Assembly (NCBI RefSeq): GCF_011059105.1 | Contig: NZ_JAALLS010000013.1 | Span: forward strand, 1-36,891 | Direction of reading: 5' to 3' | Origin: Fodinibius halophilus | GTDB lineage: Bacteria; Bacteroidota; Rhodothermia; Balneolales; Balneolaceae | DNA: 36,891 nucleotides | Shown here: in pieces, positions 4,973 to 19,260 of the stretch | How the letters are laid out: every line of letters starts with the position of its first letter | How positions within the stretch are numbered: position 1 is the stretch's first letter | The notes under the pieces: generated by a model | Told to the model about the DNA's origin: nothing | The model's input: the letters and a program-made list of their open reading frames with translations, nothing else | Database searches by the model: none | Made by a program: the position numbers and the translations under genes

Positions 4973-5827
4973 ATGAGACTCTCATCCAAACAGTCTTCAT
5001 TACTAACAATTATACTCCTCATCTTTTTGTGGATCATATTGTTTGTCTTTAGTGCTGCGGCAGGTAACAACTACTCCACGAATACCGAAAACAGTAAGTT
5101 TGTTTCCCCTTATCATTCCCTTGAAGATCCGACTGAGGAAAAAGAGAGCCTTCAACCACTGATCGCTTTCCTCAAAAAAGAAGGATATGAAATAGAAGAA
5201 CTACTGGCTGATTCTCGCTTTGAACTCTATGACGGAATCGCCGACCGTTTTCGTAAATCTGCTGAACGAAAATCGCATACCCTGGAATCATATAAACGAA
5301 TACTCGGATTCGATGCCAAAGCCCGGGAGATTCGTAATTTTATTAACAAACATTCTGACCAACTCGATAAAGCTTCTCAAGAATATGGTATCTCAAAATA
5401 TGTGATTTCCGCTATTATTGGTATCGAATCAGACTTCGGACAAAATATCGGCAGCTATAATCCCTTCAATGCATATGTTTCGATGTATGCCGAAAATTAC
5501 CGCCGTGATTTTGCTAAAGCGCAGCTCAAAGAGCTCATGGAATTTGTAGCCCGCAATAATATTGATGTTTTTGAATTAAAGTCCAGCTATGCCGGGGCAA
5601 TGACTTTTGCACAATTCATCCCCTACTCTTTAAATAAGTGGTTTGTGGGAAAAGATCTCTTTGATATGGACAATAATATCATGTCGGTGGCTAACTACCT
5701 GGCCTACTTCAAAAAAAGAACTAATAGTATTAGAACAGCCGTTCTGCGATACAATCCCAGCAGCCTGTATACCAAAGCCGTACTGGACTTGGCAGATACC
5801 GCTGAAAAACGTTATGGAACGCGCTAA
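4973..5827 (+). CDS. Membrane-anchored lytic transglycosylase, MltB-like (SLT_2)
   Basis: Counting from the ATG at 4973 gives 284 residues, with an N-terminal hydrophobic span (about 10-31). The SLT_2/MltB-type catalytic core follows: AIIGIESDFG with the catalytic glutamate near residue 152, then SYAGAMTFAQFIPYS near 215 and a SVANYLAYF segment. This family cleaves the MurNAc-GlcNAc bond in peptidoglycan to give 1,6-anhydro ends. A GTG at 4931 would add 14 residues rich in Lys and Arg. I prefer the ATG because it places a normal short charged region before the signal-anchor. There is no lipobox, so the protein is probably anchored by the N-terminal helix. It is a single gene; a protease gene lies 256 bases downstream. 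Confidence 0.85.
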   Translation: MRLSSKQSSLLTIILLIFLWIILFVFSAAAGNNYSTNTENSKFVSPYHSLEDPTEEKESLQPLIAFLKKEGYEIEELLADSRFELYDGIADRFRKSAERKSHTLESYKRILGFDAKAREIRNFINKHSDQLDKASQEYGISKYVISAIIGIESDFGQNIGSYNPFNAYVSMYAENYRRDFAKAQLKELMEFVARNNIDVFELKSSYAGAMTFAQFIPYSLNKWFVGKDLFDMDNNIMSVANYLAYFKKRTNSIRTAVLRYNPSSLYTKAVLDLADTAEKRYGTR

Positions 5828-6083
5828 TCGTTCATAGAGAGCTTTGCAAAACCTTAGTGTCATCGCAAATGAAATACGGTGATCTTCTTTTGCAACTTCT
5901 AATAGGAGATCGCTTCAGTCGAAATGACAAGCTGAAAATTAGAGGTTTTACGAAGCTCTACCATATTAATGGTACGCTGAAATCGGGTGTTGATCATTTC
6001 CTAATTATGCAACCAATACCTCGAGTGGGATTTTTAACACCAGTTTATTAGGTTACTTTTTTATAACCTTTATTCGTAAAACT

Positions 6084-7037
6084 GTGCAACTGCGATCTGT
6101 TGGTACATTTGTTTTCTTTTTTCTGATAGGGCTGATCTACTTCCTCTATTTCAGTATCGGTCAACCCATTACACAGAACAACAGCACAGAAACAACCCTT
6201 CTAAAAACGGCTCCCTGTGAAGGAGTTCTCACCTATCGAATTGGGACTATTGACGACCAGTATGATATTAGTAAAAGTGAATTAACACAGGTAATGAAAA
6301 AGGTTGAATCGCTTTGGGAGAAATCCATTGATAAAAATTTACTCCAGTATAAAAAGGACGGCAGTATCACTATCCATCTTATATATGGCGAAGAACAACA
6401 GCGTTCGGAAAATGAACGACAGCTTTCACAACGGATACAGACGCTAAAAGACCGTACTGAAATGACGAGAAAAGCATTCAAACGCCTTTCAAAATCGTAC
6501 AAAGAACGAGTAGAACAGATGGAAAAAGCTTTGTCTAAGTACAATGAAGCCGCATCAGAATTCAATAAAAAAATTAAAGAGTGGGAAAAAAATGGAGGCA
6601 TTCCACGCAGTAAAAAATCGCAAATTGAAAAGATGCAGAGAGAGCTCAAGCAATTACAGCATAAAGCGAAAAGGATTAAGAGTAATACAGAATCGCTACG
6701 AAAACAGGCAAATGCTAAATCGCGACAACTTAATCGTTTAGTAGAACGACAAAACGAAATGATTGCGGAGTATAATAGCCGATTTAGTAAAGTAGAACGA
6801 TTCGACCAGGGGCAGTACCGTGTTGTAGATAATGAAAAACGTATTAATATTTATCAATTTGGCAACAAGGCCGAACTGACAACCGTTTTAGCCCACGAAA
6901 CGGGCCATGCCCTGGGGCTTGATCATGTCGATAATCCAAAGTCCATAATGCATGCCGTAATGGATAAACAGAATATCTTTGACCTAAGGCTTACCAAAGA
7001 AGATATAGCTGCACTGCAAAAAAACTGCCATAACTAA
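6084..7037 (+). CDS. Matrixin-type zinc metalloprotease with inserted coiled coil
   Basis: The 317-residue protein has a membrane span or signal anchor at residues 7-25, then the start of a protease-like fold (CEGVLTYRIG with a following VESLWEK helix). A strongly charged coiled coil fills about residues 105-235. The zinc motif HETGHALGLDH is at 271-281, followed by a Met-turn (SIMH, 287-290). The HExxHxxGxxH motif plus Met-turn defines metzincins, and the ALGLDH wording fits matrixins (peptidase M10A-like). The coiled coil is inserted between the N-terminal beta strands and the active-site helix, which is unusual. The start is a GTG at 6084, the only start that keeps the hydrophobic segment. 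The substrate is unknown. Confidence 0.8.
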   Translation: MQLRSVGTFVFFFLIGLIYFLYFSIGQPITQNNSTETTLLKTAPCEGVLTYRIGTIDDQYDISKSELTQVMKKVESLWEKSIDKNLLQYKKDGSITIHLIYGEEQQRSENERQLSQRIQTLKDRTEMTRKAFKRLSKSYKERVEQMEKALSKYNEAASEFNKKIKEWEKNGGIPRSKKSQIEKMQRELKQLQHKAKRIKSNTESLRKQANAKSRQLNRLVERQNEMIAEYNSRFSKVERFDQGQYRVVDNEKRINIYQFGNKAELTTVLAHETGHALGLDHVDNPKSIMHAVMDKQNIFDLRLTKEDIAALQKNCHN

Positions 7038-12081: not shown

Positions 12082-12711
12082 TTAACAACTTATCTTCCCC
12101 TGCACTCCTGCCCTGTGAATGAAATTGCCCTTTGCTGCAAGGATGAATCCGATGGCAGTAAACTCTCCCAACAGAACAAAAATGAATACAAATATGCGCT
12201 CCAACAAACCGATAACTCTCCCCGTACTATATTCATCATCATCTACCTGTTTTGTATCATCACCCAGAAATTTGACGCCCAGCAATTTTAGCCAATAACG
12301 GAGTAGAATATTCATCTCATTGAGCACCAGAAGAAAGCCTAAAAGAACCCCCTGAACAACCACCCATTCCGTAGTTGCGAGACGCCCCTCTGCCAACAAA
12401 ACCTGATCCATAAAAGCCCCAACATTTCCCGCCAAATTATTTGCTTCCAAAGAAGTAATCGGACTACAAATAAGGGCTGCAAAAATAATCTAAAATACCA
12501 ACAACGGACCACGATTCTGTTGGAGTATCCAGACCTCTTTTTCTAGCCCTTTCAACAAAAACAACATTCCAATAAGATAAGCTGCCAGCAAAAACCATCC
12601 CGCATTAAACTGCAAAAATGGGAGCACTAAAAATGGTAGCGATCCAACCTTAAAGACCTCTTTCCATTCCAAGGGTTCATCTTGCAAAACAAAATATAAT
12701 CGGCCCAGCAC
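12082..12711 (-). pseudogene. Decayed multi-span membrane protein gene, third gene of the SatD/PycTM locus
   Basis: One minus-strand frame runs from about 12749 to 12082 but is broken by a TAG at 12490-12492. The 5' part codes for membrane segments (VGSLPFLVLPFLQFNAGWF, LLAAYLIGMLFLL). After the stop the same frame continues with more hydrophobic segments and ends with GRVIGLLERIFVFIFVLLGE and TAIGFILAAKG. That last part resembles the C-terminal module of DUF3307-type proteins, which are often found beside SatD genes. In those proteins the AAK is normally followed by more sequence, missing here. No ATG exists near the 5' end; a GTG at 12711 is the first usual start. Frame continuity across the stop argues for recent decay. 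Alternatives are two short proteins or a sequencing error at 12490-12492. Confidence 0.55.
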
Positions 12712-12739
12712 TGTGAGGTTAAGTACACACAGTAATATC

Positions 12740-13387
12740 TCAATAATAGCTCTTCAATTGATGGTTAATAATACCTGCCATATTCTCGCTTAATTCCCTG
12801 ACCACATCCAGGGAAGCTGCTTTTTTATTTTTATAAAATGCTGTTTTTGATATATCCAGCTCTTCAGTAATTGCCTTATAGTCAGCACCTTCTTTCAGCA
12901 TGTATAAAATTCGCAATCTATTTTTGTTCCATCCACGCACCTGTTTAGATAATAATTGTAAACTATTGTTTATAAGGTCAATCACCGGCAGATCCTGACC
13001 TGCAACACCGAGGTAAAACAAGAACCCACTCTCCTTAAGCACCTCAATCCCCTTTCGGGCAGCATGAAAAGCCGGTCCATCCATCCCAATAGCCTGTTCT
13101 TTATTTATGGGCGTATTTATCTCCCCTACCCCTACAGAAAAACGAACCCTGACCGGATACAATCCAGCTAGGATCTTGAGAATATCTGTGCATATTCCCT
13201 CTGCACTTTTAAACACTGCTTGGAATTCATCTCCAAGCGTGATGGTATAAGGAGATACTATCGTCCTACTTTCATTATTTAATGCTTCTAATAAAATGCT
13301 AAGATCATTCTGAAGTTTTTCTCGCTCCTTATTCGATAACTTCTTAGAATCCTCTATATCCGCTATAAGTACAATTAATTTATTCAT
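12740..13387 (-). CDS. SatD-family protein with nucleotidyl-cyclase-like motifs and C-terminal HTH
   Basis: The 215-residue soluble protein has two parts. Residues 1-120 carry the signature of the SatD family and look like a class III nucleotidyl cyclase/GGDEF fold: VLIADIEDS with D10, TLGDEFQAVF with D53, VRFSVGVGEI at 81-90, and DGPAFHAARKG at 103-113. In cyclases the two Asp, about 44 residues apart, bind the metals; the spacing here is 43. The Asn of the cyclase NxxxR motif is replaced by F107, while R111 is kept. Residues about 155-205 form a helix-turn-helix (YKAITEELDISKTAFYKNKKAA). The gene starts 14 bases after the stop of the PycTM-like gene, so the two are probably co-transcribed. 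Family call: good. Catalysis: inference only. Confidence 0.8.
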   Translation of the reverse strand: MNKLIVLIADIEDSKKLSNKEREKLQNDLSILLEALNNESRTIVSPYTITLGDEFQAVFKSAEGICTDILKILAGLYPVRVRFSVGVGEINTPINKEQAIGMDGPAFHAARKGIEVLKESGFLFYLGVAGQDLPVIDLINNSLQLLSKQVRGWNKNRLRILYMLKEGADYKAITEELDISKTAFYKNKKAASLDVVRELSENMAGIINHQLKSYY

Positions 13388-13401
13388 AAAGATGTACTTC
13401 G

Positions 13402-13878
13402 CTAAGAATGGCTATAAAGAAGATAAATTGATAACAACCATGGGACTATGGATAAAAACAAACAACCCATTGACCTTTGTACCCATTTATATTTTTTATT
13501 CGCAATTTCAGCATTCCGATGACACTGAGCCAATAAATCGTCAAGATATTCCTCATCACTCAACGCCTTAAATTCTTCAGTATACTGATCAGCTTGCTTT
13601 TTTGCTATCGCTCCAAAATAGATAAAAGAACCTGGACCTTCAGTCTCAGGTAAGATTGCAATTGCTGAAATAGCTACTGTAGTTAACAATAAAGCAAGAG
13701 TAACAATACCCAACCCCAAACCCCAACAATCAACTGAATCAGCAGTTTTTAGTAGAACAATCACAACCCCTATCATAGCTGTAGATATACTGAATATAAT
13801 TGAAATTCGAGATTCTGATGCTCTTACCCACTCCAACATTCTTGACAGACTTAGTTCCGCTTTTTCTATCTTTTCCAT
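13402..13878 (-). CDS. Pycsar-effector-type (PycTM, DUF5706-like) membrane protein
   Basis: From the ATG at 13878 the protein has 158 residues; a GTG at 13926 would add 16 residues and is less likely. The N-terminal helix (LSLSRMLEWVRASESRISII) leads into a membrane hairpin (about 25-44 and 53-76). A soluble segment with FIYFGAIAKK (85-94) and the conserved helix NAEIANKKYKWVQRS (122-136) follows, then a last span at about 137-155. This W...S-x-hairpin, YFG and NAxIAxxKYxW pattern is that of the PycTM effector of Pycsar anti-phage systems. In those systems a cCMP or cUMP signal makes the protein damage the inner membrane. The next gene codes for a cyclase-fold SatD-like protein. Binding of a nucleotide and toxicity are inferences from the family. 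Confidence 0.78.
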   Translation of the reverse strand: MEKIEKAELSLSRMLEWVRASESRISIIFSISTAMIGVVIVLLKTADSVDCWGLGLGIVTLALLLTTVAISAIAILPETEGPGSFIYFGAIAKKQADQYTEEFKALSDEEYLDDLLAQCHRNAEIANKKYKWVQRSMGCLFLSIVPWLLSIYLLYSHS

Positions 13879-13931
13879 ATCAATTTTTTTGGTGAATATT
13901 TGTATGTACGATACAAAAACTATCACAAAAC

Positions 13932-13958
13932 TTGCGAATTACAGGGTTTATATTTTTG
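13932..13958 (+). promoter_or_regulatory. Candidate promoter for the UPF0182 gene (TTG / TATTTTTG)
   Basis: TATTTTTG at 13951-13958 fits the Bacteroidota-type -7 element TAnnTTTG, with a TTG at 13932-13934, 16 bases upstream. It lies about 107 bases before the UPF0182 start codon, in the divergent gap with the PycTM-like gene. Pattern match only. Confidence 0.3.
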
Positions 13959-14065
13959 CGGTCTTATTTTGTTATACTTTTTTCTCTGTAATGCTTAATA
14001 TTTTTTGTTTCTTCTGGTATTGATGCAGTCCATAATTCATCCATTTATAACTCTATTTACTGCTT

Positions 14066-16789
14066 ATGAGTAATTCTACCCGCTCAAATAGACTTTTCAA
14101 GATTATTCTACCTCTATTGATAATCCTTGGTGTTTTAGGGTTGTTTTCTGACTGGATTATCGAATGGCTCTGGCTAGATAACCTGGGCTACGACCAAGTA
14201 TTCTGGACGATAAAACTTACCCAGGGACTCTTACTCTTTGGCGCTCTCTTTGTTGCTCTCTTGTATGTAATCCCAAATATGAAAGTGCTGGGTAAACGAT
14301 TTAGCACCATGAGTTTTGGTCAGTCTCCCCTGGCCCAACTCAATCTACATCAAATCAGCAGTAAAAAGATAAAGCGAACTTTTTACGGCCTGGGAGCTAT
14401 CATCAGCGGCTTTTTCTCCCTGGCCTTTTTTATGCGATGGGATACCTACTTCCGGTTTCACTGGAACGAAACGTTTGGGCAGGTCGATCCGATATTCGGC
14501 CATGACATCGGCTTTTATCTGTTTAGACTTCCTTTTTTCGAGCTGATCCAGAACAGCCTGAGCTCTCTGGTATTTTTTGTAACAGCTATCACTATTGTAC
14601 TCTACGTGTATTCCGGAGCACTTAGTTTTGGATCATCCAAAAACATTCTGGCTTCAGCCGGCATTAAAAAACATATCAGTATCAACCTAGGCATCTGGCT
14701 ATTACTACTCTCCTGGGGATACTACCTGCAACGCTATGCCCTGCTAAATAACTCCGGCGGTGCAGTCTACGGAGCTGGATATATCGATCTTAACGTACGA
14801 CTACCCATTATATGGATACTATGTGTACTCTCTTTAATTTTGGCAGGATTTGCCTTTTTCCAGATCTATAAAAGTAAATTTAAATGGTTAATTATTGGCG
14901 GTGTTGCCACCATTTTGATAGGTGGAATTGGCAATGGACTGCTACCCGGCCTGGTACAGCAATTCATCGTAGAACCAAGCGAACTGCAACTCGAAAAACC
15001 ATATATCAAACATAGTATTCAACAGACACGCGAGGCCTATGCACTGGATGAGATGGAAACCCAGCCCTACAGTGCCCAACCAGCCGAGCAGATGGATTGG
15101 ACTACCATTGAAGAGAATGAACAGACCATTGAGAATATACGCCTCTGGGATCCAAGATTACTGATACAAACCTATCGCCAGCTGCAAGAAATCCGCCTGT
15201 ACTACCAGTTTTACAATGTTGACGTGGACCGCTACCAAACCGATGAAGGTTATATGCAGATGATGGTTTCTGCCCGCGAACTTTCAGAGGAACTTCCCGA
15301 ACAAGCCGATACCTGGGTGAACCGCCGCTTACAATATACCCATGGTTACGGCTTGGTAATGAGTCCCGTAGCACAAGAAGGCTCTCAGGGAGATCCCCGA
15401 CTGACCATCAAGGATATTCCACCTGTCTCTGAGATGGGACTCGAAGTCGATCAGCCGGCCATCTACTACGGCGAACACAACTCCGACTATAAAATTGTGA
15501 ATACTAACGTTCGTGAGCTCGACTACCCCAGAGGAGATAAAAATGTTTATAACAATTACCAAGGCAGTAGTGGGGTTAACATTGGTAATTTCTTTTCAAA
15601 ACTGTTGTTTGCCTGGAACTTCGGGGATATGAATATTCTGCTGACTGATTATATCAATGAGGACAGTAAAATTATCTTCTGGAAAAGGACTCAAGAACGG
15701 GTTAAGAAAATTGCTCCTTTCCTACGTCTGGAAGATAACCCCTACATGGTACTCAATGAAGGCAAACTTTACTGGATTCAGGATGCCTACACTACTTCTC
15801 CCGACTATCCTTACTCAGAACCATATAACGGGCAGTACAATTACATTCGAAATTCTGTTAAGGTAGTTGTAGATGCTTATAATGGTTCTGTAGATTTCTA
15901 TGTCTCAGACGAAAAAGACCCGGTGCTCAATATATATCGGGATATCTTTCCAGATATGTTTAAGCCAATAGATGAAATGCCGGGAACGCTCCGTAATCAC
16001 GTGCGTTACCCTATCCATTACTTCAAGGCACAAATTGAAAAGTTCAATGAGTACCACATGACGGATCCCCAGGTATTTTATAATAATGAAGACTTGTGGA
16101 CGCGTCCCAACGAAAAGTATGGCGGCCAATCGATCAAGATGGAGCCATACTACGTACTCACTAAGCTTCCCGGGCAAGAAGAGCTACAATATCTGCTTAT
16201 CAGTCCCCTTACCCCCAACAACAGGGATAATATGATCGGCTGGATGGCTGCCAATTCCGACTATCCCAATTATGGAGAAGTCTCCGTGTATCAACTGCCG
16301 AAAGAACGGCTGATACTGGGGCCTGCCCAAATCGAAGCACGTATAGATCAGGATACTGAAATATCGCGGCAGCTGGCACTTTGGGATCAGCGCGGCTCCC
16401 GGGTTATCCGAGGCAACCTTATGGTGATCCCCATAGAAGATTCTTTTATATACGTAGAACCGGTCTTCCTTATAGCTGAAGGCGTAGATATCCCGCAGCT
16501 GCAACGTGTTATTGCCACCTCTGGTGACAAAATTGCCATGCAGCCCACCCTTTGGGAGTCCATAGAAGCACTTTACGGCAAAAAGGGGCAGCGAATTGCA
16601 TCTACAAAAATCGATACGGGAGCCGTACAACCACCGGCCCAACAGGTGAGTCGTGCCACATCGTCGGCAGAATTAAACAAGGCCCGGAGCCTTTGGAAAG
16701 AAGCAAGCCAAGCCTTAAAAAAGGGCGACTGGGAAACCTTTGGTAACAAGATGACGGAGATAGAAAGACTACTCAATAAAAACCAGTAG
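14066..16789 (+). CDS. UPF0182 family integral membrane protein
   Basis: The 907-residue protein has about seven membrane spans in residues 10-295, followed by a large soluble domain (about 300-850) and a short helical tail (RSLWKEASQALKKGDWETFGNKMTEIERLL). Landmarks are DWIIEWLWLDNLGYDQVFWT at the start, the VEPSELQLEKPYIKHSIQQTR segment after the last span, and WDPRLLIQTYRQLQEIRLYYQF. These match the UPF0182 (COG1615) family in order and length. No biochemical function is established. Start ATG at 14066. Its stop is only 8 bases from the stop of the convergent kinase gene, with no terminator between them, so the transcripts may overlap. Confidence 0.92.
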   Translation: MSNSTRSNRLFKIILPLLIILGVLGLFSDWIIEWLWLDNLGYDQVFWTIKLTQGLLLFGALFVALLYVIPNMKVLGKRFSTMSFGQSPLAQLNLHQISSKKIKRTFYGLGAIISGFFSLAFFMRWDTYFRFHWNETFGQVDPIFGHDIGFYLFRLPFFELIQNSLSSLVFFVTAITIVLYVYSGALSFGSSKNILASAGIKKHISINLGIWLLLLSWGYYLQRYALLNNSGGAVYGAGYIDLNVRLPIIWILCVLSLILAGFAFFQIYKSKFKWLIIGGVATILIGGIGNGLLPGLVQQFIVEPSELQLEKPYIKHSIQQTREAYALDEMETQPYSAQPAEQMDWTTIEENEQTIENIRLWDPRLLIQTYRQLQEIRLYYQFYNVDVDRYQTDEGYMQMMVSARELSEELPEQADTWVNRRLQYTHGYGLVMSPVAQEGSQGDPRLTIKDIPPVSEMGLEVDQPAIYYGEHNSDYKIVNTNVRELDYPRGDKNVYNNYQGSSGVNIGNFFSKLLFAWNFGDMNILLTDYINEDSKIIFWKRTQERVKKIAPFLRLEDNPYMVLNEGKLYWIQDAYTTSPDYPYSEPYNGQYNYIRNSVKVVVDAYNGSVDFYVSDEKDPVLNIYRDIFPDMFKPIDEMPGTLRNHVRYPIHYFKAQIEKFNEYHMTDPQVFYNNEDLWTRPNEKYGGQSIKMEPYYVLTKLPGQEELQYLLISPLTPNNRDNMIGWMAANSDYPNYGEVSVYQLPKERLILGPAQIEARIDQDTEISRQLALWDQRGSRVIRGNLMVIPIEDSFIYVEPVFLIAEGVDIPQLQRVIATSGDKIAMQPTLWESIEALYGKKGQRIASTKIDTGAVQPPAQQVSRATSSAELNKARSLWKEASQALKKGDWETFGNKMTEIERLLNKNQ

Positions 16790-16797
16790 ATCCCCGG

Positions 16798-19260
16798 TTA
16801 TTTTTTCAGTTTAAATTGGAGGGTGAATTCAGTGCCCTCTCCAGTGCGGTTAAACTCTGATTCACCTTCAAGTTGGGTTGAAAGAGTGTGTATTAACTTA
16901 ATGCCCAACGACTGGGGATTATCCAGGCTTACTTCCTCAGAAATACCGATACCATTATCTTTTACCGTCATATATATCTGCCCATCTTTATTAGATATAT
17001 TGATATTAATTTTTCCTTTCTCTTGATTGACAAATGCGTGTTTATAGGCATTTGTTATCAGCTCATTCAGGATAAGCCCACAGGGGATAGCCTGGCTTAT
17101 CGTAAAGTCAATAGGGTCCGCATCAATAGATATTGAAACATCAGTCTCTTCAGATTTCATTGAAGAAACAATAACATCGGTAAGCTCTTGTAGGTATGTA
17201 TCGAAGGAAATTTCGGATAAATTCTTATTCTGATAAAGCTTCTCATGGATCAGTGCTATAGAATTAATTCGCATCTGGCTGGCGGTGAGCACCTCCGTAG
17301 CCTCTTCCGAAGTGGTATTAAAGGCCTGCAGCTCTAATAGGCCCGTAATTACTGCCAGATTATTTTTTACACGGTGATGAATTTCGGCCAGTAACACTTC
17401 TTTCTCCTTCAGTGACTTTTTCACCTTCTCTTCCGCCTTTTTGCGATCGGTGATATCTACAAAGATGCCAAATATAGCCACTGTCTTTTCTCCCACGTTA
17501 ACAGGCACCCCATATATCAATACATCCACCAGGCTCCCGTCTTTGCATACTCTTTTACCGGTATGAAAAGCAGTTTCGCCACTAAATATTTTATTTGATA
17601 CCTTTCTTGCCGCTTCCCTTTCGTCTTCGGGCACCAAGAAATTATCAATATTTAACCCTCGCACCTCATCCGTTTGGTAACCGAATGTATTATCAAACGA
17701 ATCATTAACCTTTCTTACTTCTTGGCGTTTATCTAACAAAGCAATAGGTACCGGAGCGTTTTGGAAGAGCTGACGGAACATCTCTTCATTTTTTCGGAGT
17801 TCTTCTTCTGCCTTATAGCGTTCCGTGATATCTCGCGCGATCGTAATAACAGCATCTTCCCCGAAATAAGTACCGGGATTGACAACCACTTCCTTCGGAA
17901 AGACCTCTCCATTTTTCCGTTTTCCCCACCATTCAAAGCTCTGCGGGGTACCGTTTATGGCCTTTTGTACTTTTTTCTTTGTTTCTTCCAAATCCACCTT
18001 TCCCGGGGCTGCTAATACTTCCGGAGTTTGCCCGATAAAGAAAGACTCATCATAACCGTACATATCAACCGCGCCCTGGTTCACCTCAAGAAAACGCCCA
18101 TCTTTATCCTGGATATATATCGCATCAGATATCGAATCGAACAGATCCTGAAAGGTATTCAGGCTGGCCTCGTACTTGCGTACGGTTTCCTTATTCTCAG
18201 TAATATCTAGCAGGGTACCTACTACCGCAGGCCGCCCCATATACGTTATCCTGGCTCCATAAACACTTACATCAATAACATCGTCAGTCTTTGTTGTGCA
18301 ACGAAACTCATATTCAATAGAATCTTCCTCTCCCTCAATTCGTCTGCGCAGATTCTCCTTTACCAAATCTACATCCTCGGGATGTGTAAGGTCAAACGGC
18401 GACATCATCCCAATAATATCCTCCCTTTCATAGCCAAAAATATTCGAAAATCGAGGATTAACGTATTTAAAGACCCCATCTTGAATAAGGTAGACACCAA
18501 CGAGAGACTCCTCGGAAAGGGCTCTAAACAGATTCTCGGACTGTCGTTGATCACTAACATCCACGATCAGCGAATGGATATATTTGAGGTCTCCCTGCTT
18601 ATTATACCGTAATGAATTGTACCATTTACAGATCAGGGATTCACCTTTCCTTGTTTTAACCTTGGTTTCGAAACTAAAATGTGATTCTTTACTCTCAATC
18701 ACTTCGTGAAGATTACTCTGGATGAGATGCGCCTCCTCAATAAGGAAATCATTTATATTCATCTCCATATTTTTGATCTCCTTCTCAGACCAACCAAAAA
18801 GCTCACTAGATTGTCTAGACCAACTATCAATCTCCAGATCACTTCCCCACCTAATCTCAGCAAAAGGGAAATTTGATTTAGCCCCTACAATGTCCGGGAA
18901 ACTCAACCGTCGCTTTTCTTCCTCAATTTGATAGCTCACATCATGGGCAACCACCAGCTTCGCATCCATCTCATTACAATTGAATGAATGAGAAGTAAAC
19001 TTTACAAATCGATCTTTGCCTTGCTTTGTCTTATGAACATGAAGTTTATCCTCGGTTGTCGACCCTTTGGAAGAGATACCCAATATTTCTGCCCGGTTTT
19101 TTTCGGTCCCCAAATCGTCTATATTCATTGAGGTGAACTCTCCATGTGAATACCCATAACATTCCTCAGCTGAATCATTCACATCAAGAATATCACCCGA
19201 ACATTGATCTAGTATAAATACAGGTTGCTCATCAAAAAAAGTTATGCTATTACTATTCAT
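16798..19260 (-). CDS. Five-PAS sensor histidine kinase, HisKA_2 type
   Basis: The 820-residue protein has no clear membrane span and so is probably cytoplasmic. Five PAS domains can be counted, beginning at about residues 1, 130, 245, 365 and 490, each with the N-x-x-x-x-x-x-G[YW] pattern; several are followed by PAC segments ending in DITE or DITDRKKAEE. The kinase core is of the HisKA_2 group: phospho-acceptor His in EIHHRVKNNLAVI (HH at 628-629), N box NELITNAYKHAF, G box DNGIGIS, and SLGIKLIHTL. Such kinases often signal to stand-alone regulators; no response regulator lies nearby. The ligand is unknown. ATG at 19260; convergent with the UPF0182 gene. Confidence 0.92.
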   Translation of the reverse strand: MNSNSITFFDEQPVFILDQCSGDILDVNDSAEECYGYSHGEFTSMNIDDLGTEKNRAEILGISSKGSTTEDKLHVHKTKQGKDRFVKFTSHSFNCNEMDAKLVVAHDVSYQIEEEKRRLSFPDIVGAKSNFPFAEIRWGSDLEIDSWSRQSSELFGWSEKEIKNMEMNINDFLIEEAHLIQSNLHEVIESKESHFSFETKVKTRKGESLICKWYNSLRYNKQGDLKYIHSLIVDVSDQRQSENLFRALSEESLVGVYLIQDGVFKYVNPRFSNIFGYEREDIIGMMSPFDLTHPEDVDLVKENLRRRIEGEEDSIEYEFRCTTKTDDVIDVSVYGARITYMGRPAVVGTLLDITENKETVRKYEASLNTFQDLFDSISDAIYIQDKDGRFLEVNQGAVDMYGYDESFFIGQTPEVLAAPGKVDLEETKKKVQKAINGTPQSFEWWGKRKNGEVFPKEVVVNPGTYFGEDAVITIARDITERYKAEEELRKNEEMFRQLFQNAPVPIALLDKRQEVRKVNDSFDNTFGYQTDEVRGLNIDNFLVPEDEREAARKVSNKIFSGETAFHTGKRVCKDGSLVDVLIYGVPVNVGEKTVAIFGIFVDITDRKKAEEKVKKSLKEKEVLLAEIHHRVKNNLAVITGLLELQAFNTTSEEATEVLTASQMRINSIALIHEKLYQNKNLSEISFDTYLQELTDVIVSSMKSEETDVSISIDADPIDFTISQAIPCGLILNELITNAYKHAFVNQEKGKININISNKDGQIYMTVKDNGIGISEEVSLDNPQSLGIKLIHTLSTQLEGESEFNRTGEGTEFTLQFKLKK

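Follow-up and report, generated by a model that had tools for sequence, protein, structure and literature searches.

SatD of Fodinibius halophilus: a palm-fold, HTH-bearing protein of a family with phased promoter arrays, encoded behind a PycTM-type effector gene

What is the role of a small protein that carries the two metal-site aspartates of nucleotidyl cyclases and ends in a helix-turn-helix (HTH) domain, and what does it mean that its gene stands directly behind that of a Pycsar-type effector? The question is raised by a 36,891-nt stretch of the Fodinibius halophilus genome (contig NZ_JAALLS010000013.1, positions 1 to 36,891), referred to below as the window. A sequence-only reading had assigned an open reading frame at 12740–13387 to SatD and left two options for it: a nucleotidyl cyclase whose active site is new, or a transcription regulator of the locus that senses a nucleotide. 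These coordinates are right, and the gene lies on the minus strand (13387..12740), starts with ATG and encodes 215 aa that match family PF16264 with an E-value of 1e-28 and 100.9 bits (Pfam cut-off 29). The minus-strand gene order is a PycTM-type two-TM effector gene (13402..13926), satD and a broken membrane-protein gene (12082..12739). The effector gene, the decayed partner and the promoter arrays described below, which are the main results, go unmentioned in the sequence-only reading. Upstream of these genes and divergent from them lies a UPF0182 gene (14066 to 16789, PF03699), adjoined by a gene for a histidine kinase with several PAS domains (HisKA_2, HATPase_c; 16798–19260, minus strand). 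A published SatD function was not found in the open literature under SatD, DUF3307 or PF16264, and among the matches listed for the word SatD none dealt with PF16264, as judged by titles and the first lines of abstracts. The 'SatD family' and DUF3307 are named in PMC10326533 and PMC8504454, respectively.

SatD loci were collected from four sources: the best 80 of 363 relatives found with a conserved peptide in GTDB species genomes, and family searches in 296 genomes of the same phylum (66 with SatD), 350 genomes of the phylum of a Chloroflexi bin (6 with SatD) and 348 genomes of the phylum of a Clostridium (63 with SatD). Dropping duplicates with identical C-terminal 120 residues left 215 SatD ORFs, a sample of the family. 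Residue conservation was scored in 206 distinct proteins of at least 180 aa, taken from a profile search of all ORFs with shorter fragments excluded. The family occurs in Bacteroidota, Chloroflexota, relatives of Clostridium, Proteobacteria and on haloarchaeal plasmids; the plasmid-borne genes include haloarchaeal and Agrobacterium examples (L304, L306 and L307; NZ_CP019068.1, NZ_CP011248.1 and NZ_CP101160.1). No satD relatives were present in the viral contigs or phages searched, and a phage origin of the gene was rejected for this reason.

The AlphaFold model of the window protein, built from 60 sequences, has a mean pLDDT of 96.3 and a pTM of 0.92. By this model and its PDB matches, residues from about 1 to 153 would form a palm resembling that of class III cyclases (strands 3–11, 43–49, 54–59, 81–89 and 124–128, with helices between them), followed by a further helix and the HTH. 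The C-terminal HTH, claimed earlier from the sequence, is plain in the model (helices 155–165, 170–177 and 181–190); residues 155–190 are encoded at 12818..12925 on the minus strand, and their HTH_23 match (5.9e-5, 23.2 bits) falls just below the Pfam cut-off of 24.6 bits. The top Foldseek matches in the PDB are class III cyclases (1ybt, E = 2.4e-5), and the 50 matches at E ≤ 0.001 include GGDEF and type III CRISPR palm proteins. VIA-align gave Z values of 12.7 for GTP cyclohydrolase III (2qv6; 114 residues aligned, 2.4 Å), 11.8 for guanylate cyclase 3et6 (135, 3.5 Å), 11.5 for Cmr2 (3ur3; 166, 6.9 Å), 11.2 for both a mycobacterial adenylyl cyclase (4wp8) and the Panoptes protein mCpol (9pd0; 107, 2.4 Å), and about 10.9 for GGDEF domains (4urq, 10.9; 112, 2.5 Å). 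Since values no more than one Z unit apart count as ties, no single palm family is favoured: the modelled fold is that of the palm nucleotide enzymes, with no clear choice among families.

At the sequence level, a phmmer search of the PDB with the window protein returned nothing at E up to 10, and neither the PADLOC models nor Guanylate_cyc matched it at E up to 1. When the PDB was searched with a profile built from 28 SatD proteins, the hits were HTH proteins, 14-3-3 proteins and a few weak others, with no cyclase among them, and a profile comparison with an alignment of nine PycC-like proteins gave nothing. As phmmer, the profile search and the PycC-like comparison all failed to bring up a cyclase, SatD was rejected as a canonical cyclase recognisable by sequence.

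Palm enzymes hold their metal-binding aspartates at the end of strand 1 and in the turn between strands 2 and 3. In the SatD model, D10 (codon at 13358..13360, minus strand) and D53 (13229..13231, minus strand) occupy these two places, 43 residues apart, as had been pointed out from the sequence. An alignment of many homologues had been suggested as a check on the invariance of D10, D53 and R111. The two aspartates come close to it, being present in 197 and 200 of the 206 proteins, whereas R111 is found in 151; this arginine is invariant in a 60-member set (A3), but its invariance across the family was rejected. The peptide pattern by which 63 of the 206 proteins were fetched itself contains D53; among the other 143, D10 is kept in 135 and D53 in 137. 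Further conserved positions (n = 206) are S14 (198), G52 (202), Q56 (198), R82 (180), G88 (201), G104 (203) and W153 (194). Only D10, S14, G52 and D53 are invariant in a 28-member alignment of family-search loci (A1), which was hand-picked after a filter for the letters DEF, GDS, GDE or DE, so that the invariance of D53 was slightly helped; the 206-protein set was built without this filter. The aspartates neither vary freely nor lie apart in the model, the two outcomes named beforehand as contrary to the proposal, and as far as a nucleotide-site protein is concerned, both earlier readings are supported by the fold and the near-invariant aspartates. The retained metal site makes it most likely that SatD produces or binds a nucleotide; that it handles one in some way appears probable from model and conservation together.

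The segments GVGE and DGPAFHAARK, as well as F107 and R111, are present as described earlier, and residues F107 to R111 (13055..13069, minus strand) take the place of the class III NxxxR motif. The asparagine is indeed missing from the window protein, which does not make it special, as none of the 206 SatD proteins carries N107: position 107 is F in 133, Y in 35, L in 25, W in 12 and V in 1 (F, Y or W in 180). SatD is thus a family whose sequences fail one defining feature of class III cyclases, the NxxxR asparagine. In a Pycsar setting, its absence is no argument against nucleotide chemistry, because six of nine cyclase-like proteins encoded beside PycTM also have it replaced (by eye), with Lys for Arg in all nine. 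At comparable motifs these nine share invariant D, S, G and D (by eye), and the first of them has D91 and D135, 44 residues apart. One of the nine, from the window's genome, is a PADLOC-confirmed PycC (4.7e-127), while the other eight were taken by motif.

The usual setting of satD was established from its neighbours. At 180 of the 215 loci, a gene for a protein of one C-terminal membrane domain family lies within 400 nt on the same strand, downstream of satD in 172 cases and upstream in eight, and the gap is at most 20 nt in 136. The upstream position is seen at some loci of the Clostridium phylum (e.g., L184, L196 and L199). The window is counted among the partner-bearing loci, since its pseudogene fragment still matches; the 35 loci with no partner include at least four that come to within 130 nt of a contig end. 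When six partners were compared with Pfam, two were DUF3307 (L002 and L162) and four had no family over the cut-off, and the usual partner in the sample is DUF3307 (PF11750) or a related multi-TM protein. A model of one partner (pLDDT 92.6) had no PDB match (best Foldseek E 2.4; best VIA Z 6.3 over 68 residues). At both archaeal plasmid loci, the gene in the partner's slot overlaps the end of satD, and one of the two is annotated as DUF3307.

Binding sites for the HTH had been suggested at 13879–14065. None were found there; it is the relatives that carry a row of sites in the corresponding region. In nine genomes of the genus, 17-bp palindromes with the consensus TWAACYWNNNWRGTTWA stand shortly before satD, two or three per genome at 29-bp steps, amounting to 27 sites versus 2.25 in shuffled sequences, one site being off phase (G301). 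All shuffles preserved dinucleotides, with a plain shuffle as fallback, and the related sequences compared are not independent. A first test with a loose half-site gave a weak signal (25 versus 11.1); the 17-mer drawn from the genus and then applied to 200 other loci gave 81 versus 17.6. In the SatD clade of the window (82 loci), the core AACYANNNTRGTT, allowing one mismatch, occurs at least once at 57 loci, at least twice at 40 and at least three times at 24; the total is 127 boxes, versus 3.2 in shuffles, and 66 of the 70 spacings between neighbouring boxes are 28 or 29 bp. By record titles, the boxed loci include Gammaproteobacteria, Ignavibacteria, Calditrichota and Chloroflexi. The longest rows have five boxes at exact 28-bp steps upstream of satD (L007, before 1492, where satD is cut short near the contig end; L122, before 5938).

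The other SatD clades (132 loci) have direct repeats of differing sequence at the same spacing, with lag 28 at 25 loci (1.8 expected) and lag 29 at 43 (2.0 expected), and only 0 to 6 loci at each of the remaining lags. For all clades together, a 28/29 lag was found at 118 of 214 satD loci versus 18 of 563 control ORFs taken from those loci; the controls showed nine at each of the two lags and an average of 8.2 at other lags, the latter average being 3.0 for satD. The lag is present at 62 of 80 loci from the same phylum, 44 of 62 conserved-peptide loci and 10 of 68 loci from the Clostridium phylum, and absent from 96 of the 214, Firmicutes above all; regulation of satD may differ in the Clostridium phylum, where the array is mostly missing. 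Both copies are palindromic in at least five of six arm pairs at 89 of 117 array loci.

The operator sequence changes with the recognition helix. Helices of the YK[NST] class go with AACY..RGTT operators (45 of 51), AVYQ with GAAGC..GCTTC (4 of 5), RG[VI]YK with T[GT][AT]AC..GT[AT]C (6 of 6, three of which also fit the YK[NST] class), [WY][KR]R with TT[TG]CA..TG[AC][AT]A (15 of 24) and Q-x-x-V with TATCG-type and related sites (17 of 42). The 87 matches between helix and operator classes compare with 19.2 after permutation (maximum 31), while 77 loci have no helix class. The clades and the operator expressions were defined after inspection, and three of the five expressions were changed from a first set that had given 62 matches versus 17.7 (maximum 27), which makes the test a descriptive one that is also influenced by relatedness. 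Of 92 genomes of the family, 15 contain the exact tandem pattern (none in the reversed control), with satD right behind it at 14 of the 15 loci and the last one cut by a contig end. Because the operator changes with the recognition helix at constant phase, SatD very probably binds its own promoter through the phased arrays, and a regularly spaced assembly of SatD on its own array would be the simplest explanation of the pattern. Exact single operators number 22 in the 12 genus genomes, five of them at satD, and since the reversed control (43) exceeds this number, only autoregulation is claimed and not a wider regulon. The regulator envisaged by the sequence-only reading thus finds strong support across the family as a DNA-binding autoregulator; for the window locus itself it does not, since the array is gone there.

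In the window, the effector gene stands in front of satD with 14 nt between its stop codon and satD. Its product is a Pycsar-type effector by PF18967 (63.2 bits, cut-off 27.2) and matches the PADLOC models PDLC00711 (6.3e-49) and PycTM PDLC02363 (7.3e-37) over nearly its whole length. These matches begin at residue 16–17, and the ATG at 13878 is a more likely start than position 13926. The 12 genomes of the genus, that of the window included, comprise ten with a close satD, one with a distant satD and one with none; a relative of the window PycTM is present in the window's own genome alone. Its relatives were not found in the viral contigs searched, and plasmids yielded three partial matches. 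In the six genus relatives that were read, satD and an intact partner gene (245 to 249 aa) adjoin the UPF0182 gene. Homology to one relative, G298, extends in blastn through UPF0182 to window position 13973 and resumes from satD on, and the intervening stretch of G298 is about 138 nt long and carries an array at −105 to −31. The PycTM-bearing block of about 586 nt (13388..13973, minus strand) therefore takes the place of the promoter array. Neither satD nor PycTM of the window retains a 28/29-bp repeat in its upstream region, and a search of the whole genome for 29-bp tandems of the core with up to three mismatches gave two hits versus six in the reversed control. Regulation through the same sites is therefore not supported at this locus. 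The same genome has a second, distant SatD (L002, G000:C1:143717-144253), whose partner is DUF3307 and whose own 28-bp array differs in sequence.

An intact partner, which is a rule found in this sample and not a definition of the family, is likewise lacking in the window. Compared with the intact 246-aa gene of G298, the multi-TM partner gene at 12082..12739 (minus strand) has lost its start, contains an in-frame stop and is deleted at its 3' end. Its loss is recent, because the pseudogene retains a codon-position bias (0.264/0.152/0.426; 0.178/0.107/0.509 in satD). The window satD is intact and not sped up, as its dN to six outgroups (0.29 to 0.37) does not exceed that of its nearest relative G298 (0.33 to 0.37). 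With so young a pseudogene next to it, the intactness of satD proves little about later selection.

A PycTM gene adjoins satD at three of the 215 loci, namely in the window and at two loci filed under Chloroflexota, L105 and L168, all three over the Pfam cut-off and the latter two again lacking an intact usual partner. At L105 (JAEKNU010000053.1, a metagenome bin titled Chloroflexi bacterium), a 2TM/PycTM gene (PDLC00691, 4.2e-31; PF18967, 32.9 bits) comes 64 nt downstream of satD, in the position normally taken by the partner; no such partner is present in the 6 kb that follow. The region upstream of this satD has one box that satisfies the core search and two degenerate copies 30 bp apart (lag 30). 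At L168 (genome G620 of the same phylum sample), a PycTM gene (PF18967, 28.5 bits; PDLC02364, 3.6e-24) stands 19 nt in front of a satD with no array, followed by a partner that lacks the first 99 residues relative to L169. The flanks of L168, read by eye, hold a superoxide dismutase gene in front and uvrB behind. Two satD loci of the same clade, L166 and L169 (part of the L169 flank being masked), combine a lag-28 repeat with long partners (309 and 287 aa) and have no PycTM gene immediately before satD. All three PycTM-satD loci lack an intact partner and have either no array or a degenerate one, with D10, S14, G52, D53 and R111 kept (by eye). A broken partner together with retained metal-site residues would be expected if PycTM took the part of the partner and needed the nucleotide site of SatD.

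The three PycTM proteins share 34% (window), 26% (L105) and 28% (L168) identity with the nearest member of a set of 24 PycTM; L168 is 20% identical to each of the other two, and the best PADLOC models differ among the three. They therefore look like separate acquisitions. The profile used to search for PycTM was trained with these three hits included, and the independent tests are those by Pfam and PADLOC. The 350 Chloroflexota genomes contain SatD in 6, PycTM over the cut-off in 9 and two adjacent pairs, one of which (L105) was the centre of the sample and is thus not independent. In the 296 genomes of the window's phylum, with SatD in 66 and PycTM in 111, the pair occurs only in the genome of the window (coordinates compared by eye). 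Many PycTM matches of this phylum (e.g., L032–L061) lie in open frames of about 400 aa, where PycTM seems to be fused to something else.

The explanation we prefer is that SatD joins a palm-fold nucleotide site to a DNA-binding HTH. Where the locus has its normal form, SatD would control its own promoter by occupying palindromic operators spaced at 28 or 29 bp, and would act together with the membrane protein of the following gene. At D10/D53 it most likely produces, or at minimum binds, a signal nucleotide that gates this partner, while the HTH and the array would tune the level of SatD and hence the nucleotide supply. In the window, the PycTM gene has replaced the promoter array and heads the operon, and the usual partner has decayed; here and in the two other lineages PycTM may serve as the receptor of the SatD signal. 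The outcome would be a cassette of two genes, one for the effector and one for the nucleotide enzyme (SatD), whose action probably resembles that of Pycsar or Panoptes, with a signal that either opens the effector or keeps it shut. Taken as a whole, namely that SatD is an autoregulating nucleotide-site protein and probably a synthase, that it reports to a membrane partner, and that PycTM has taken this partner's place here, this explanation has in our view about an even chance of being correct. Against it stand the asparagine missing from all 206 proteins and the arginine from 55, the null comparison with PycC-like proteins, the lack of a cyclase in the PDB searches by sequence, PycTM at only 3 of the 215 loci, a single pair in 296 genomes of the phylum, and the 96 of 214 satD loci that show no 28/29 lag. 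That SatD makes the ligand of PycTM is a possibility we rate somewhat short of even, and a role of the PycTM-satD pair in phage defence is possible but a little more doubtful.

The main rival, which we consider unlikely although worth keeping in mind, is that SatD is a nucleotide-sensing repressor and nothing else, with a palm that binds nucleotide and metal without chemistry, an HTH that represses through the array, and a membrane gene, PycTM included, that is mere cargo. The phased arrays that follow the recognition helix in many clades fit such a repressor well, as do the restriction of the exact tandem pattern to satD at all loci that allowed the check (14 of 15, with one cut), the class III asparagine absent throughout and the arginine often absent. 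However, both metal-site aspartates are among the most conserved residues, more so than binding alone seems to need. The array is moreover gone from the window, with no intact one of the window-clade type found in the genome, and L168 is arrayless too; control through the array therefore does not explain why SatD has been kept together with PycTM.

The pair in the window could also be an accident, in which a stray defence gene hit the satD promoter and shut the operon, leaving the partner decaying and satD not yet so. This would agree with the restriction of the window PycTM to one of 12 genus genomes, the youth of the pseudogene and the lost array. It agrees poorly with the recurrence of the pairing in two further cases, with other PycTM sequences (20% identity), on the same strand, within 64 nt and with no intact partner, nor are two adjacent pairs readily expected among 350 Chloroflexota genomes in which SatD and PycTM are both so rare. 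We therefore regard an accident as improbable. The remaining rival is a divergent Pycsar, in which SatD would be a genuine class III cyclase that supplies PycTM with cUMP or cCMP as a 3',5'-cyclic mononucleotide. This reading can draw on the leading Foldseek matches, on the D-S and G-D motifs with 43 residues between the aspartates versus 44 in the PycC of the same genome, and on the asparagine that this PycC lacks as well, but with no PADLOC or Guanylate_cyc match, a null profile comparison, and GTP cyclohydrolase III, mCpol and GGDEF domains fitting SatD about as well, it has little probability.

Returning to the preferred explanation of SatD as a nucleotide-site protein signalling to a membrane partner, its likeness to known systems is partial. 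The SatD/DUF3307 setting involves the same family, and the window differs from it in the pseudogenised partner, the PycTM gene at the head of the operon and the missing promoter array. PycTM of Pycsar is a receptor of cyclic pyrimidines. As in Pycsar, a PycTM gene lies directly upstream of a gene for a palm-fold protein; unlike Pycsar, there is no adjacent PycC, and SatD carries an HTH. Since it has no PycC, the PycTM-satD pair is not Pycsar proper. A Pycsar pair of the usual kind is encoded elsewhere in the same genome (L075, G000:C16:70000-78378; 5149–6983, minus strand), where a 163-aa PycTM is directly upstream of a 435-aa PycC with an AGS_C domain, the PycC confirmed by PADLOC as noted above, and an apparent integrase gene is nearby (by eye). 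Panoptes offers another comparison, as a small palm protein beside a two-TM effector gene, the fold match to mCpol being one of structure only that shows no function. Panoptes effectors are two-TM proteins of the S-2TM-beta, CARF or SAVED type, OptE being an S-2TM-beta protein; the window effector matches PycTM and 2TM effector models and may differ from OptE. SatD does differ from mCpol in its HTH. With class III cyclases and GTP cyclohydrolase III, SatD shares the fold and two metal-site aspartates (43 residues apart versus about 44), and it differs from class III cyclases in the NxxxR asparagine, never present, and the fused HTH. We know of no activity for SatD. The two modes considered for the signal have precedents: in Pycsar, a nucleotide signal opens the effector (PMC11224242), and in Panoptes, the mCpol product 2',3'-c-di-AMP holds it back (PMC12657218, PMC12657230).

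In its broadest form, our proposal is tentative and rather doubtful. SatD might found an undescribed and widespread system, in which a palm synthase that is also a DNA-binding autoregulator, cooperative on a 28/29-bp array, would signal to a membrane receptor that can be exchanged, being a multi-TM or DUF3307 protein or, in three lineages at least, PycTM, and the window would then represent a conversion to a Pycsar-like defence cassette by replacement of both promoter and receptor. The presence of PycTM, a receptor whose type of ligand is known, makes the question of the SatD ligand testable: a search could go straight for the SatD product if it is what PycTM receives. For SatD, the phased arrays are a ready DNA target, and they are a rare instance of an operator sequence that can be traced across phyla together with its recognition helix and a fixed spacing. 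The PycTM swap, in turn, is of interest for the possible origin of Pycsar-like defence systems in genes of chromosomal signalling.
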